Shown here: one piece after another, positions 30,719 through 43,640 of the stretch
Layout: each line of letters opens with the position of its first letter
How positions within the stretch are numbered: position 1 is the first letter of the stretch
DNA from: Salinigranum halophilum
GTDB taxonomy: Archaea; Halobacteriota; Halobacteria; Halobacteriales; Haloferacaceae
DNA: 64,000 nucleotides
NCBI RefSeq assembly: GCF_007004735.1
Contig: NZ_ML660182.1
Coordinates: 428,130-492,129 of the forward strand
Direction of reading: 5' to 3'
The notes under the pieces: generated by a model
Databases searched by the model: none
Told to the model about the DNA's origin: nothing
What the model saw: only the letters and a program-made list of their open reading frames with translations
Made by a program: the position numbers and the translations under genes

Positions 30719-30790
30719 GGGCTCGTAGATCAGGGGTAGATCACTCCCTTGGCATGGGAGAGGCCCCGGGTTCAAATCCCGGCGAGTCCA
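30719..30790 (+). tRNA. tRNA-Ala (GGC)
   Basis: A 72-base cloverleaf. The acceptor stem GGGCTCG pairs with CGAGTCC (30783-30789) with one G-U pair, and the discriminator is A. The D arm is GATC...GATC, the anticodon stem CTCCC/GGGAG encloses TTGGCAT with anticodon GGC, and the T arm is CCGGG TTCAAAT CCCGG. A TTAATAC box lies about 34 bases upstream. It is not interrupted by an intron. The AT-richer stretch with a decayed integrase begins directly after it. Confidence 0.95.
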
Positions 30791-31007
30791 TCAGGATTCT
30801 GCGCAGAACTAAATTGAACAGACAGCGGCGGTTCTATACCTCGATGCCACTCCGTCTGAGGGGGCAGTTACTACCTGAAACCGGCAAGTGCGTCTGAGAG
30901 CATTTGCACCCTTTGAGGTGTTCGCCCTCCTGAGACACATCGATTTCATCCAGTGAGTCATGATGCGCGACATAATTCTCACCCTGAATTCAGCGAGGAG
31001 TGCCAAA

Positions 31008-31925
31008 TCAAAGTGGGAGTAGATTGAGATTGTACGCATGCGAGATATGTGCTCCAATCATGAGATAGAGGAACGTGGACAGAACAAGAGTTTGTTTAAA
31101 TGATGACAACTCTCCAAAACTCACGATACCATACCGCCCATACAGGAATCGGAAAGAAACCATGAGATAATTTACACAAAGGAAAGAGAAGATTCCAAGA
31201 CCGAATATTGCTATTCTACCCACAATCGAATCTGCAGGCAATAACCACACAAATACGATTCCAGAAATGACAAAAAGCGAAAGCATCCCGGCCACTGCCA
31301 GTAGGACTCCGAGGTTTCCCCCTACTCGCTCCCATTTCTCAACCTCCTGGACAGACATTCCCTCCGAGTCAAGAATTACGTCTACTTCTGGAGGATAGTC
31401 CTTCGCGTCCAACAGACCAATCTTAAGAGTGTTCTGTATGGCCTCAATAACCTGGTCGCCATATTTTGTTTTCTCGATACTTCCGTCGTACTTGTCGTAT
31501 GCAAACGCGGCCATCATCAGCATGAAATCTCTGAAATACAGCTCATACGGTACTATTGACAACAAAATAATTATGAAAGTGAAAACCAGCGCAAGAATCA
31601 ACGGGCTGAGCGGGACAACCACTGAAGCGTAAGTTCCCAAAGCGAGAGCGAAATACAAGCCTGAGTAGGTGCTGAGGATAACGAGAGCCGATGTTGTATT
31701 TTGAATCACCCGCTTTGACAAGGCAAACTGATTGATTACTGCCATCCGCCGTATCAGAGTTATTAGTAGAAGTGACATGGCAACACCGTATGTTGGTATC
31801 CGTAGAGGTGAGCTGATGTTTGGATCTGCAAGAAGGCCCGTTGCGAGAAAAGCCGCCAAGGTAATCTCAAAATCTACGGAACTAGCTTTGTCATCGAATA
31901 CATTTTCAACCAGACTGTCACTCAT
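31008..31925 (-). CDS. AT-rich four- to seven-TM membrane protein, likely foreign
   Basis: A 305-residue membrane protein with two hydrophobic clusters (about residues 21-130 and 207-300) around a soluble middle (VDVILDSEGMSVQEVEKWERVGG). The gene uses many AT-ending codons and Ile/Lys/Asn residues, unlike every neighbour, and lies between tRNA-Ala and an integrase remnant. Both facts point to cargo of an integrated element. ATG start at 31925. I do not recognise the family. Confidence 0.75.
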   Translation of the reverse strand: MSDSLVENVFDDKASSVDFEITLAAFLATGLLADPNISSPLRIPTYGVAMSLLLITLIRRMAVINQFALSKRVIQNTTSALVILSTYSGLYFALALGTYASVVVPLSPLILALVFTFIIILLSIVPYELYFRDFMLMMAAFAYDKYDGSIEKTKYGDQVIEAIQNTLKIGLLDAKDYPPEVDVILDSEGMSVQEVEKWERVGGNLGVLLAVAGMLSLFVISGIVFVWLLPADSIVGRIAIFGLGIFSFLCVNYLMVSFRFLYGRYGIVSFGELSSFKQTLVLSTFLYLMIGAHISHAYNLNLLPL

Positions 31926-31973
31926 AATATAAAGGATAGGCTAGGCCCTCATCAAGCATGGGGAGTGGTACAT

Positions 31974-32204
31974 CTATTCTTTAGATATTATCCAAGAAGT
32001 CCCGCTGTAACCTCCGCTTGTCCTCCTCTGTCTGCACGTTCTAGTGCTCCGAAGCACCTCTGGACTCATAGCTATCCTATCGCTCGCCATCTCTTCGGGC
32101 ATCCCGTCGTTCAAGTTCTTGCTCGCCGCTACGCCGCAGGGCGTGCGCCGAGTGTGACGATAGACGCTTTGCGGCGTTGTTGTAACAGCGGAGTCCGCCA
32201 ACAA
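31974..32204 (-). pseudogene. Decayed C-terminus of a tyrosine recombinase (integrase)
   Basis: Translating the minus strand in pieces gives the end of a haloarchaeal integrase broken by frameshifts. HALRRS (box II His-x-x-Arg) appears in one frame. LNDGMPEEMASDRIAMSPEVLR follows in a second. A third frame continues as EH-stop-NVQTEEDKRRL and then QRDFLDNI before a real stop. The catalytic Tyr that should follow EH is a TAG codon. A single missing G after MSPEVLR explains the last shift. Only about 75 residues remain, so the gene is dead. It lies 1.2 kb from tRNA-Ala. Confidence 0.68.
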
Positions 32205-39989: not shown

Positions 39990-40274
39990 ATGTTCGATGT
40001 CATACTGTTCCCGGGGCTGCCGGGTGGGCCGGAGCTGCTCATCGTGCTGTTCGTGCTCGTCCTGCTGTTCGGGGCCAACAAGATCCCCAAGCTCGCTCGG
40101 TCGACCGGGCAGGCGATGGGCGAGTTCCAGCGAGGCCGCCAGGAGATAGAAGAGGAACTGAAAGAGATGGAGAAACAGCCGGACGAGGACGACGAGGAGT
40201 TCGAGGCGCGCAAGCGCGAAAAGGAGCGCGAACTCGAAGAGGCCGAGACCGACGAGACCGCATCCAGCAGCTAA
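39990..40274 (+). CDS. tatA: Twin-arginine translocase subunit TatA
   Basis: A 94-residue Tat pore-forming subunit. After a short N-terminal segment (FDVILFPGLPGG) lies one membrane helix (about 13-31, PELLIVLFVLVLLFGANKIP), the conserved hinge with KIPKLARSTGQAMGEFQRGR amphipathic helix, and an acidic, Glu/Lys-rich tail. It would export folded proteins, such as the Tat lipoproteins of this window, together with TatC, which is not here. Length is typical. Confidence 0.93.
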   Translation: MFDVILFPGLPGGPELLIVLFVLVLLFGANKIPKLARSTGQAMGEFQRGRQEIEEELKEMEKQPDEDDEEFEARKREKERELEEAETDETASSS

Positions 40275-40347: not shown

Positions 40348-40420
40348 GGGCGTGTGGCCTAGCGGATAGGGCGAGAGGTTCCTAACCTCTCGATCGCGGG
40401 TTCGAATCCCGCCACGCCCG
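40348..40420 (+). tRNA. tRNA-Arg (CCT)
   Basis: A 73-base cloverleaf. The acceptor stem GGGCGTG pairs with CACGCCC (40413-40419), discriminator G. The anticodon stem AGAGG/CCTCT encloses TTCCTAA with anticodon CCT, reading AGG. The T arm is GCGGG TTCGAAT CCCGC. A CTTTTAG box lies about 28 bases upstream. Its 3' end is repeated twice downstream (40481-40496 and 40596-40611). Confidence 0.95.
40405..40420 (+). repeat. tRNA-Arg 3' end, copy 1 (inside the tRNA)
   Basis: AATCCCGCCACGCCCG forms the end of the T arm and acceptor strand of tRNA-Arg(CCT). It is the first of three direct repeats in 207 bases and the natural target for tRNA-type integrases. Confidence 0.8.
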
Positions 40421-40480
40421 CTTACTCGCTGTCGCTCGTTCGCGGCCGTGGCGAACATCGCGGAATCGACGGTTCCGCTC

Positions 40481-40496
40481 AATCCCGCCACGCCCG
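40481..40496 (+). repeat. tRNA-Arg 3' end, copy 2
   Basis: A perfect 16-base repeat of the tRNA-Arg 3' end, 76 bases after copy 1. The bases before it (GGTTCCGCTC) no longer match the T loop, so it is an isolated fragment rather than a second tRNA. It fits an attachment-site scar. Confidence 0.75.
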
Positions 40497-40595
40497 TTTC
40501 GACCGAGCCACAGCGAGGTGTGAGGCGGCCAGGAGATTCGAGCACGGCAAGTCGCAGCGCCGGGCGAAGCGAGGCGACCGTCTCGCTCCGGTTCG

Positions 40596-40611
40596 AATCC
40601 CGCCACGCTCG
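40596..40611 (+). repeat. tRNA-Arg 3' end, copy 3
   Basis: AATCCCGCCACGCTCG matches copy 1 at 15 of 16 bases. The match extends upstream through GGTTCG (40590-40595), covering the T loop as well. It lies 115 bases after copy 2 and fits an older or distinct attachment-site scar. Confidence 0.72.
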
Positions 40612-40964: not shown

Positions 40965-43640
40965 ATGGCTATCGACGACGCTGACACAGCCGGCGCGACT
41001 CAGTCGGAGTCAGCGCCGTCGCAGTCGGCCGGGGTGACGCTCGGCGAGTACACCTGGGAGCAGTACCTCCGCGAGTACGGCGACCCGGGGGACGCCGAGG
41101 CCGCTGCGACGACGCGCCGTCGTGGCGACATCGACTGGGAGGAGGTCGCGGCCGAGGACAGGGCCGCGACGGACCTGGGGGTCCACCCGACGGAAATCGA
41201 GACACGGCTGGCCGCCGCGGCGACGGCGGCAACCCGCGTCGAGGACTCGCTCGAACCGACCACCGACCTCTCGGACCCACCGGTCGTGAAGGACTGGTAC
41301 GCCGAGGAGCATTTCGCGGCCGACCACCCGGAGACGGCACTCGACGAGGCGCTCGGCTTCGACGCCGAGGACGTCGAGGGCGTCCTCTCGCACGCCGAGA
41401 ACCTGGCCGCGGAACTCGACGACGTCGTCGACCAGCGGACGGTCACGGTCCAAGACGACTTCGACGAGGACGCGTTCTTCCGGACCGACGAGGGACACTC
41501 GACCGTCGTGACGCGGTACGACCTCGAGAAGACGGTGCCGCTCGCGAAGAAGGTCCACTTCCGCGAGGTCGAGCGCTACTGGGTGAACGAGCCGTACTCG
41601 TTCGTCATCATCTTCCACTCGACGAAGGAGAACGAGAAGAAGTACTACGTGGTCCAGCCGTACATGAATCGGATCGAAGACGACCTCGTGGACTACCTCA
41701 CGGGGAAGCTTCGGACGGCCATCAAGTACTCCGACGACGACGTCATCGCCGCCAACACCGAGGACCGACAACACGTCATCGAGTCGGAGACGCTCAACCT
41801 CCTCGACCGGTACGGCCTCTTCGCCGCCCCTGCATCGGCGGTCGGCGGCTCCGAGCCGGGATTCCTCCGCCAGGGCCCTCTCGGTGCGCTCGCGGACTTC
41901 TTCGGCCTCGGCGACGACGACGAACCCGAGTCGTCGTCGACTGCGCTCGGCGTCGGGAGGCTCGAGGGCATCGAGGCCCGTCCCGAAGCAGCAGTGCTCG
42001 AGGAAGACTCCGAACGACTCAACGAGTACCAGGTCGAGAAGCTGCTGTACTACCTCCGCCGCGACTTCATCGGCTACGAACGCATCGACGGCATCAAACA
42101 CGACATCAACGTCGAGGACATCTCGTGTGACGGCTACAACTCGCCCGTCTTCGTCTACCACTCCGACTACGAGCAGATCATCTCAAACATCTACCACGGC
42201 CGCGAGGAGCTCGACGACTTCGTCGTGAAACTCGCCCAGCGGTCGGGGAAGGGTATCTCGAAGCGGAGCCCGCAGGTCGACGCAACGCTCCCCGACGGGT
42301 CGCGCGCCCAACTCACCCTCGGCCAGGAGGTGTCGGACCACGGGACGAACTACACCATCCGGCAGTTCAAGGACGTCCCCTTCACGCCCATCGACCTCAT
42401 CAACTGGAACACGTTCTCGCTCGACGAGATGGCGTTCCTCTGGCTCTGTATCGAGAACCACAAGTCGCTCATCTTCGCCGGGGGGACGGCGTCGGGGAAG
42501 ACCACCTCGCTGAACGCGGTGTCGCTTTTCATCCCGTCGAACTCGAAGATCGTCTCCATCGAGGACACGCGCGAGGTCGAACTCCCCCAGCGCAACTGGA
42601 TCGCGTCGGTGACTCGTCCCTCGTTCGCCGACGACGACGGCGGCGACGTCGACGAGTTCGCCCTCCTCGAAGCCGCCCTTCGACAGCGACCCGACTACAT
42701 CGTCATGGGTGAGATTCGTGGCGAGGAGGGGCGGACGCTGTTTCAGGTCATGTCGACGGGACACACCACCTACACGACGTTCCACGCCGACTCCGTCGGT
42801 GAGGTGCTGAAGCGATTCACGACGGAGCCGATCAACGTCTCGAAGACGATGTTCACCGCGCTGGACCTCGTCTCCATCCAGACGTCCACCCGGGTGGGTG
42901 GGAACAAGGTCCGACGGAACAAGTCGCTGACCGAGATCAACCACTACGACGCGGAGAACGACGAGATCAACGTGCAGGACGTCTACCAGTGGCAGGCGGA
43001 GACGGACGAGTTCCTCAAGATGGGGAACTCGAACACGCTGGAGGAGATCATGTTCGACCGCGGGTGGACTCCCGGGAAGCTCGACCGAGAGCTGTTCAAA
43101 CGCCAGCTCGTGCTCGCGTATCTCATCGACCGCGAACTCAGTTCGTACGCGCAGGTCGCGGCGACGTTCCAGGCGTTCATCAACGACCAGGAGACGATCC
43201 TCTCGCTCATCGCCGACGACCGCCTCGAGCAGTCGCTGGAGGACCTCCGCGAGATGGAGTCGGTCCAGATCAACATCGAGCCCGAGAAGGAGGCGATGGT
43301 CCCTCGGCCCTCGCCCGACACGGAGACCGCGGCGCTCGCGGCGGGCATCCTCGGCCGCGCCGAGGAGTCGCTGCTCCCCGAGTACCGGGGGAACGTGACC
43401 GCGGACGTCGCGGCGGCGCTGGCCGACATGGAGCCGGCGACGGACGTGACTGTCGGCCGCGGCGAGAGCGAGGGACCGACGGCCGTCGGTGCGGACGGCG
43501 GCGACGCGTTCACCGATGCCCTCGATGACGCGACGAAGGCAGAGACGGACGAGCCGGGCGGGGGAGACGCCGGGGAGGACGAAGAGACCGGCGGCTTCGG
43601 CTTCGGCTTCGACACAGACCGGTCGGACGGTGCAGAGTGA
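40965..43640 (+). CDS. pilB: Type IV pilus/secretion-like ATPase (PilB family)
   Basis: An 891-residue secretion ATPase that would power assembly of type IV pilus-like filaments. The N-terminal 290 residues are acidic and contain the N1 domain (TRYDLEKTVPLAKKVHF). A low-complexity insertion follows (about 285-345). The catalytic domain has Walker A GGTASGKT with Lys512, the catalytic Glu583 in MGEIRGEEG, and the His box GHTTYTTFHAD soon after. A C-terminal acidic tail rich in Gly/Glu (from about 800) is unusual. It is the first gene of an eight-gene block and is followed 3 bases later by the platform protein gene. Confidence 0.93.
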   Translation: MAIDDADTAGATQSESAPSQSAGVTLGEYTWEQYLREYGDPGDAEAAATTRRRGDIDWEEVAAEDRAATDLGVHPTEIETRLAAAATAATRVEDSLEPTTDLSDPPVVKDWYAEEHFAADHPETALDEALGFDAEDVEGVLSHAENLAAELDDVVDQRTVTVQDDFDEDAFFRTDEGHSTVVTRYDLEKTVPLAKKVHFREVERYWVNEPYSFVIIFHSTKENEKKYYVVQPYMNRIEDDLVDYLTGKLRTAIKYSDDDVIAANTEDRQHVIESETLNLLDRYGLFAAPASAVGGSEPGFLRQGPLGALADFFGLGDDDEPESSSTALGVGRLEGIEARPEAAVLEEDSERLNEYQVEKLLYYLRRDFIGYERIDGIKHDINVEDISCDGYNSPVFVYHSDYEQIISNIYHGREELDDFVVKLAQRSGKGISKRSPQVDATLPDGSRAQLTLGQEVSDHGTNYTIRQFKDVPFTPIDLINWNTFSLDEMAFLWLCIENHKSLIFAGGTASGKTTSLNAVSLFIPSNSKIVSIEDTREVELPQRNWIASVTRPSFADDDGGDVDEFALLEAALRQRPDYIVMGEIRGEEGRTLFQVMSTGHTTYTTFHADSVGEVLKRFTTEPINVSKTMFTALDLVSIQTSTRVGGNKVRRNKSLTEINHYDAENDEINVQDVYQWQAETDEFLKMGNSNTLEEIMFDRGWTPGKLDRELFKRQLVLAYLIDRELSSYAQVAATFQAFINDQETILSLIADDRLEQSLEDLREMESVQINIEPEKEAMVPRPSPDTETAALAAGILGRAEESLLPEYRGNVTADVAAALADMEPATDVTVGRGESEGPTAVGADGGDAFTDALDDATKAETDEPGGGDAGEDEETGGFGFGFDTDRSDGAE

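Follow-up and report, generated by a model that had tools for sequence, protein, structure and literature searches.

A family of hairpin units ending in copies of the host tRNA 3' end lies behind haloarchaeal tRNA genes

Why the 3' end of a tRNA-Arg(CCT) gene should be found three times within 207 bases of a haloarchaeal chromosome is the question raised by a stretch of 64,000 nucleotides (hereafter the window) from Salinigranum halophilum, situated on contig C1 of a 4.2 Mb genome assembled in 11 contigs. A sequence-only reading of the window had reported that the 16-base end of this gene recurs exactly 76 bases downstream and again, with one mismatch and the T loop included, 115 bases beyond that, and both statements were borne out. 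The sequence AATCCCGCCACGCCCG at 40405-40420 is the tRNA end, its exact recurrence is at 40481-40496 (+76) and the one-mismatch copy is at 40596-40611 (+191), the match of the latter extending to 22 of 23 bases. The copy at 40481-40496 shares nt 58-73 of the tRNA only, whilst the copy ending at 40611 shares nt 54-73. With up to three mismatches allowed, shuffled windows yielded a mean of 1.76 chance matches per 64 kb. At no more than one mismatch, the three window sites accounted for all occurrences of AATCCCGCCACGCCCG in the 4.2 Mb genome, in which the reversed control pattern had zero matches. The features of the locus are as follows.

39990..40274, plus strand: tatA-like gene (Pfam TatA_B_E), upstream context outside the unit; synteny with the tRNA is kept in relatives
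40348..40420, plus strand: tRNA-Arg(CCT) gene (ARAGORN)
40401-40420, plus strand: nt 54-73 of tRNA-Arg(CCT), the segment recurring downstream (boundary profile, 179 arrays)
40421..40496, plus strand: type-b unit, consisting of a C-rich lead, inverted acceptor arm, inner hairpin and exact copy of tRNA nt 58-73 (40481-40496)
40497..40611, plus strand: type-a unit, consisting of the degenerate lead hairpin H1, the T-arm hairpin H2 and then the copy of tRNA nt 54-73
about 40497-40530, plus strand: H1 lead hairpin, degenerate, part of the type-a unit
40534..40600, plus strand: H2 hairpin, matched by covariance model R1 (71.7 bits, E=9.8e-17)
40534-40543, 40550-40559, 40575-40583 and up to 40600, plus strand: parts of H2, respectively the inverted T-arm, AGTCGCAGCG, CGACCGTCT and the T-arm copy
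40592-40611, plus strand: type-a tail, copy of tRNA nt 54-73 with one mismatch
40965..43640, plus strand: PilB3-like secretion ATPase (Pfam T2SSE, PilB3_C), first gene of the downstream pilus-like operon, context only

The copies thus form the ends of two short units, of about 76 bp (type b) and about 115 bp (type a), standing in tandem behind the tRNA gene. In the type-b unit, the inverted acceptor arm at 40447-40453 forms a stem with 40486-40492. Across the family, type-a units begin with H1, followed by H2, which comprises an inverted T-arm, GCAAGTCGCAG, a variable stem, ACCGTCTTGC, GG, the T-arm copy and the acceptor end; the apical loop of the variable stem is often of the form GA-NN-GNA-NN-GA. 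The inverted T-arm differs from tRNA to tRNA, matching the host tRNA. Type-b units comprise an inverted acceptor arm, an inner hairpin and the acceptor end (about nt 60-73). An inverted acceptor arm was present in 56 of the 68 type-b candidates beside tRNA-Arg(CCT), and their G-A apex lies on the opposite strand (antisense in 39/68, sense in 8/68), these counts stemming from a loose detection whose candidate set includes some distant chance matches.

BLAST comparison of the region with 60 relatives showed the tatA-tRNA-Arg(CCT) order to be conserved, and positions 40535-40603 to match many other places. Nineteen of 20 such matches fetched came immediately after a tRNA gene (Ser, Gly, Thr, Ala, Val, Arg or Leu); these carried the T-loop-to-3'-end sequence of their own tRNA at the end, and the inverted T-arm about 50-60 bases before it. 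GTDB genomes were then scanned with the pattern AGTCGCAGCG-N8..34-CGACCGTCT, giving at least 80 loci, of which 80 were read. Among the matches listed, 49 of 64 from haloarchaea had a same-strand tRNA within 400 bp upstream, and 45 of these 49 ended in a copy of nt 54-73 of that tRNA, compared with 0/18 bacterial chance matches near a tRNA; the other listed haloarchaeal matches mostly concerned tRNAs with introns or cut by contig ends, few being truly elsewhere. A stricter pattern requiring a perfect T-arm pair proved too strict, with zero matches in the Salinigranum halophilum genome itself. At two loci, from Haladaptatus and Haloarchaeobius (L156, at about 4432, and L198, at about 3073), the H2 core was found at the 3' terminus of one protein-coding gene (C-terminus ...RCFRHD), perhaps a non-tRNA target.

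The covariance model R1 matched 140 of 145 haloarchaeal genomes, with 1-33 matches per genome, a lower bound as few candidates were scored. There were no matches in about 160 genomes of other Halobacteriota, and all 31 positives of the phylum sample were haloarchaeal. For one genome (G085), 27 of the 30 R1 matches checked lay no more than 600 bp downstream of a tRNA, and 25 ended in the tail copy of that tRNA. In the Salinigranum halophilum genome, a tail copy was present within 450 bp downstream of 11 of the 44 tRNA genes, with none upstream and none antisense. A haloarchaea-wide family of hairpins behind tRNA genes of nearly every isotype can be regarded as established, and no published description of it was found in a search limited to open-licence papers. 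Viral contigs were rejected as a source of the units: two pattern scans of IMG/VR gave matches that lay away from tRNAs and reached at most a weak R1 score (26.6 bits), with no convincing carrier.

In an alignment of 48 H2 hairpins, 91.6% of cells were paired and 13 of 25 pairs showed double-sided changes. The covariation score was 0.281 as against 0.127 when shuffled, with 0/500 shuffles as high, and pairing fell to 27-47% in slid structures. Most of the aligned hairpins were selected by pattern, and their invariant core columns are in part a product of that selection; the core variants AGACGCAG and GGAACGTCT appeared among later R1 matches. Minimum-free-energy z-scores of the window units were modest (about -0.4 to -1.1, unremarkable, for type a and about -1.2 to -2.3 for type b), and it is therefore the covariation that carries the structural case. 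An Rfam search of the unit returned no family match; its output was confined to tRNA, an S15 leader and weak matches below threshold. The inner stems contained 601 Watson-Crick, 7 GU and 6 AC pairs, a near absence of wobble that resembles a DNA palindrome more closely than it does an RNA helix. The apical motif YGA-NN-GNA-NN-GAR was present in 31 of the 48 hairpins, and its NN pair covaries; the motif was noted among H1 leads as well. G-A triloops are unusually stable in single-stranded DNA, and the G-A apical loops of H2 may be a hint that the folded form is single-stranded DNA and not RNA.

Strong covariation, near-universal occurrence in haloarchaea and a core loop conserved across isotypes would suit a functional element under selection, whether a structured RNA (a pre-tRNA trailer domain) or a protein-binding DNA hairpin, with a role in, for example, 3' processing, termination or protection. 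However, a tail copy accompanies only the 11 of 44 tRNA genes noted above, five of the 145 haloarchaeal genomes had no R1 match, the number, order and even strand of the units vary, and within nt 54-63 the inverted arms track the upstream allele and not their own copy. We consider this explanation quite unlikely.

The sequence-only reading had instead interpreted the copies as attachment-site duplications at a repeatedly used integration hot spot, that is, as att scars left by ordinary integrative elements that had once inserted and since been lost. Archaeal elements with tyrosine integrases (SNJ2, pT26-2 and SSV types) do duplicate att at tRNA 3' ends, which archaeal att sites favour (PMC8371274). 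As in those duplications, the 3' end of the tRNA is repeated in direct orientation, the repeat is bounded on its 5' side at a tRNA loop and the tRNA is restored by the insert, here through the nt 54-73 repeat, and the 13-14 bp att of SNJ2 is similar to the type-b tail. Furthermore, a congener (G001, locus L035) carries a 6.1-kb element with identical 39-bp direct repeats at its ends at the same tRNA-Arg(CCT), encoding a Phage_integrase/SAM-like protein (tyrosine integrase). The element additionally encodes a truncated second integrase and a 968-aa protein rich in repeats.

The att of the G001 element, however, spans tRNA nt 37-73 plus 2, and is longer than the nt 54-73 repeated by the units; the element itself sits between the tRNA and a type-a unit whose tail has decayed, hence upstream of the unit. 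In the window, the 76 and 115 bp between copies are free of integrase, cargo or any other genes. Unlike integrase att duplications, the units are about 100 bp long, gene-less, integrase-less and tandem; in each of them a conserved hairpin core is accompanied by an inverted copy of the T-arm or acceptor, and they occur beside nearly all isotypes. The 76-120 bp between copies is a conserved hairpin, alike in kind at other tRNAs and in other genera, and not a random remnant. Att scars are thus a very improbable explanation. The hot-spot proposal holds insofar as an att-like repeat and an integrase element occur at this tRNA, but the window copies are the ends of short hairpin units and not of lost large elements, with similar units beside tRNAs of nearly all isotypes. 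Comparison with relatives, which had been proposed as a check, revealed the 6.1-kb insertion in G001 together with differences in unit number and order between species. An involvement of the neighbouring AT-rich region and pilus operon was unsupported. Elsewhere in the window, an AT-rich island (31000-32000, GC 0.44) lies just 3' of tRNA-Ala(GGC) (30719-30790) and contains a 305-aa ORF (31008-31925, minus strand) without a Pfam match. The 3' end of tRNA-Ala(GGC) was not found again downstream of that gene.

The limits of the repeated segment were examined in a boundary profile of 179 arrays. Identity between tRNA and copy was 0.91-0.99 over nt 54-73 and fell sharply to about 0.25 immediately 5' of nt 52 and to 0.36-0.56 past nt 73, with about 0.3-0.5 at variable positions of nt 54-73 in the other-isotype control. 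In arrays with differing ends, the inverted arm at nt 52 paired with its own unit rather than the upstream end (20 vs 1), whereas at nt 54-63 it paired with the upstream end rather than its own unit (42 vs 13). Such a switch at nt 53/54 is the trace expected of insertion with a crossover there, although the 42-vs-13 bias is also expected if unselected copies decay. Consistent with decay, the tRNA's own end paired better than the displaced copy in 35 of 40 differing arrays. The 5' half of the tRNA was mostly not matched better by displaced copies than by the tRNA's own end, a comparison informative at Arg loci only.

More resistant to the decay explanation are two loci, L336 and L350, at which two natural tRNA-end alleles trade places between tRNA and copy, the arm following the upstream allele both ways, since the displaced copy is in each case a good tRNA allele of another congeneric species (with one further mismatch in L350). 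This comparison covered one genus, with 39 species searched and 30 loci read. Similarly, L333 consists of the tRNA and a type-b unit, and L338 of the tRNA, a type-a and a type-b unit; in L338 the tRNA itself bears another acceptor allele, and the common one is displaced downstream. To judge from these sequences, the pair looks like an empty and a filled site. The unit orders at tRNA-Arg(CCT) included b, ab, bab, abab (L347) and aabaaab (L056), arrays ranging from none to seven units. Behind a tRNA-Val(TAC) (L089), one array unit had its H2 core inverted. At L113, L144, L163, L200, L209, L215 and L313, a T-loop change, TTCACAATCC (one extra C), was common to the tail copies of several tRNAs, whilst in most of these loci the inverted arm remains GGATTTGAA.

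The best explanation, which we consider to have an even chance of being correct, is that the units are hairpin cassettes of about 100 bp put into the tRNA T-arm by site-specific recombination, through a putative enzyme and a mechanism deduced from the arrays. A cassette would enter the tRNA gene at nt 53/54 and supply its own nt 54-73, completing the tRNA, whilst the old tRNA end would be pushed downstream to become the next copy. The inverted arm would fold the cassette so that the T-arm turns double-stranded for the putative recombinase. Tandem units would arise from repeated insertion and local duplication, and be lost via repeat-mediated deletion. Several results weaken the cassette explanation. 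Phage_integrase gene counts did not differ between unit-rich genomes and genomes lacking units; unit abundance showed no correlation with integrase gene number, and no recombinase is linked to the units by these counts. A circle of 100 bp is also very small for double-stranded recombination. Lastly, nothing suggested that units jump from one tRNA gene to another within a genome: units of different tRNAs were no more similar within a genome (0.676) than between genomes (0.678). Exchange, if real, would therefore take place between copies of the same tRNA locus.

Units of the same array were up to 0.98 identical, and units of the same anticodon were slightly more alike across genomes, which together with the lack of jumping between tRNAs would be at home with non-mobile repeats. 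Such repeats would have been present early at each tRNA, slippage between the 20-bp repeats duplicating or deleting units, and gene conversion with hairpin-templated correction matching tails and arms. The scarcity of G-U wobble in the inner stems is as such correction predicts, and short-repeat deletions have been reported in Haloquadratum, two of them at partial tRNA duplications (PMC3119063). Taken alone, non-mobile repeats leave unaccounted for the conserved core common to units of different tRNAs and the sharp arm-pairing switch at nt 53/54, and we regard them as a real but lesser possibility.

Unlikely in our estimation is an integron-like system with tRNA genes as its platform, in which gene-less cassettes recognised as folded single strands would be inserted at nt 53/54 by a putative recombinase and would exchange tRNA 3' ends, the inverted T-arm copy making the site on the folded strand double-stranded. 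The units share with integron attC arrays their tandem arrangement of short units, terminal direct repeats, varying order and an apical variable loop; both are imperfect palindromes conserved in structure beyond sequence, the folded palindrome of the units showing covariation in the 48 hairpins. Unlike integrons, the units hold no gene cassettes between sites, have many target tRNAs in place of one attI and end in tRNA sequence. Tandem repeats behind a tRNA gene, each with the tRNA 3' terminal bases, also occur at E. coli tyrT (rtT), at one locus and with a longer repeat than the haloarchaeal units; they are not known to form part of a family that spans a class and whose inverted T-arm matches the isotype.

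The hairpins form a family of repeats, for which no description was found in open-licence papers, that follows tRNA genes in almost every haloarchaeal genome examined and whose ends copy the host tRNA. For annotation, their 'partial tRNAs' are easily mistaken for prophage scars; partial tRNAs adjoining full tRNAs have been noted in Haloferax gibbonsii LR2-5, in a main text that describes no hairpin, conserved core or family (PMC7921747). They raise the testable question of whether the cassettes are mobile and, if so, through which enzyme. The family is relevant to what makes tRNA ends hot spots of recombination and, through the allele exchange seen in one genus, on the evolution of tRNA 3' ends.
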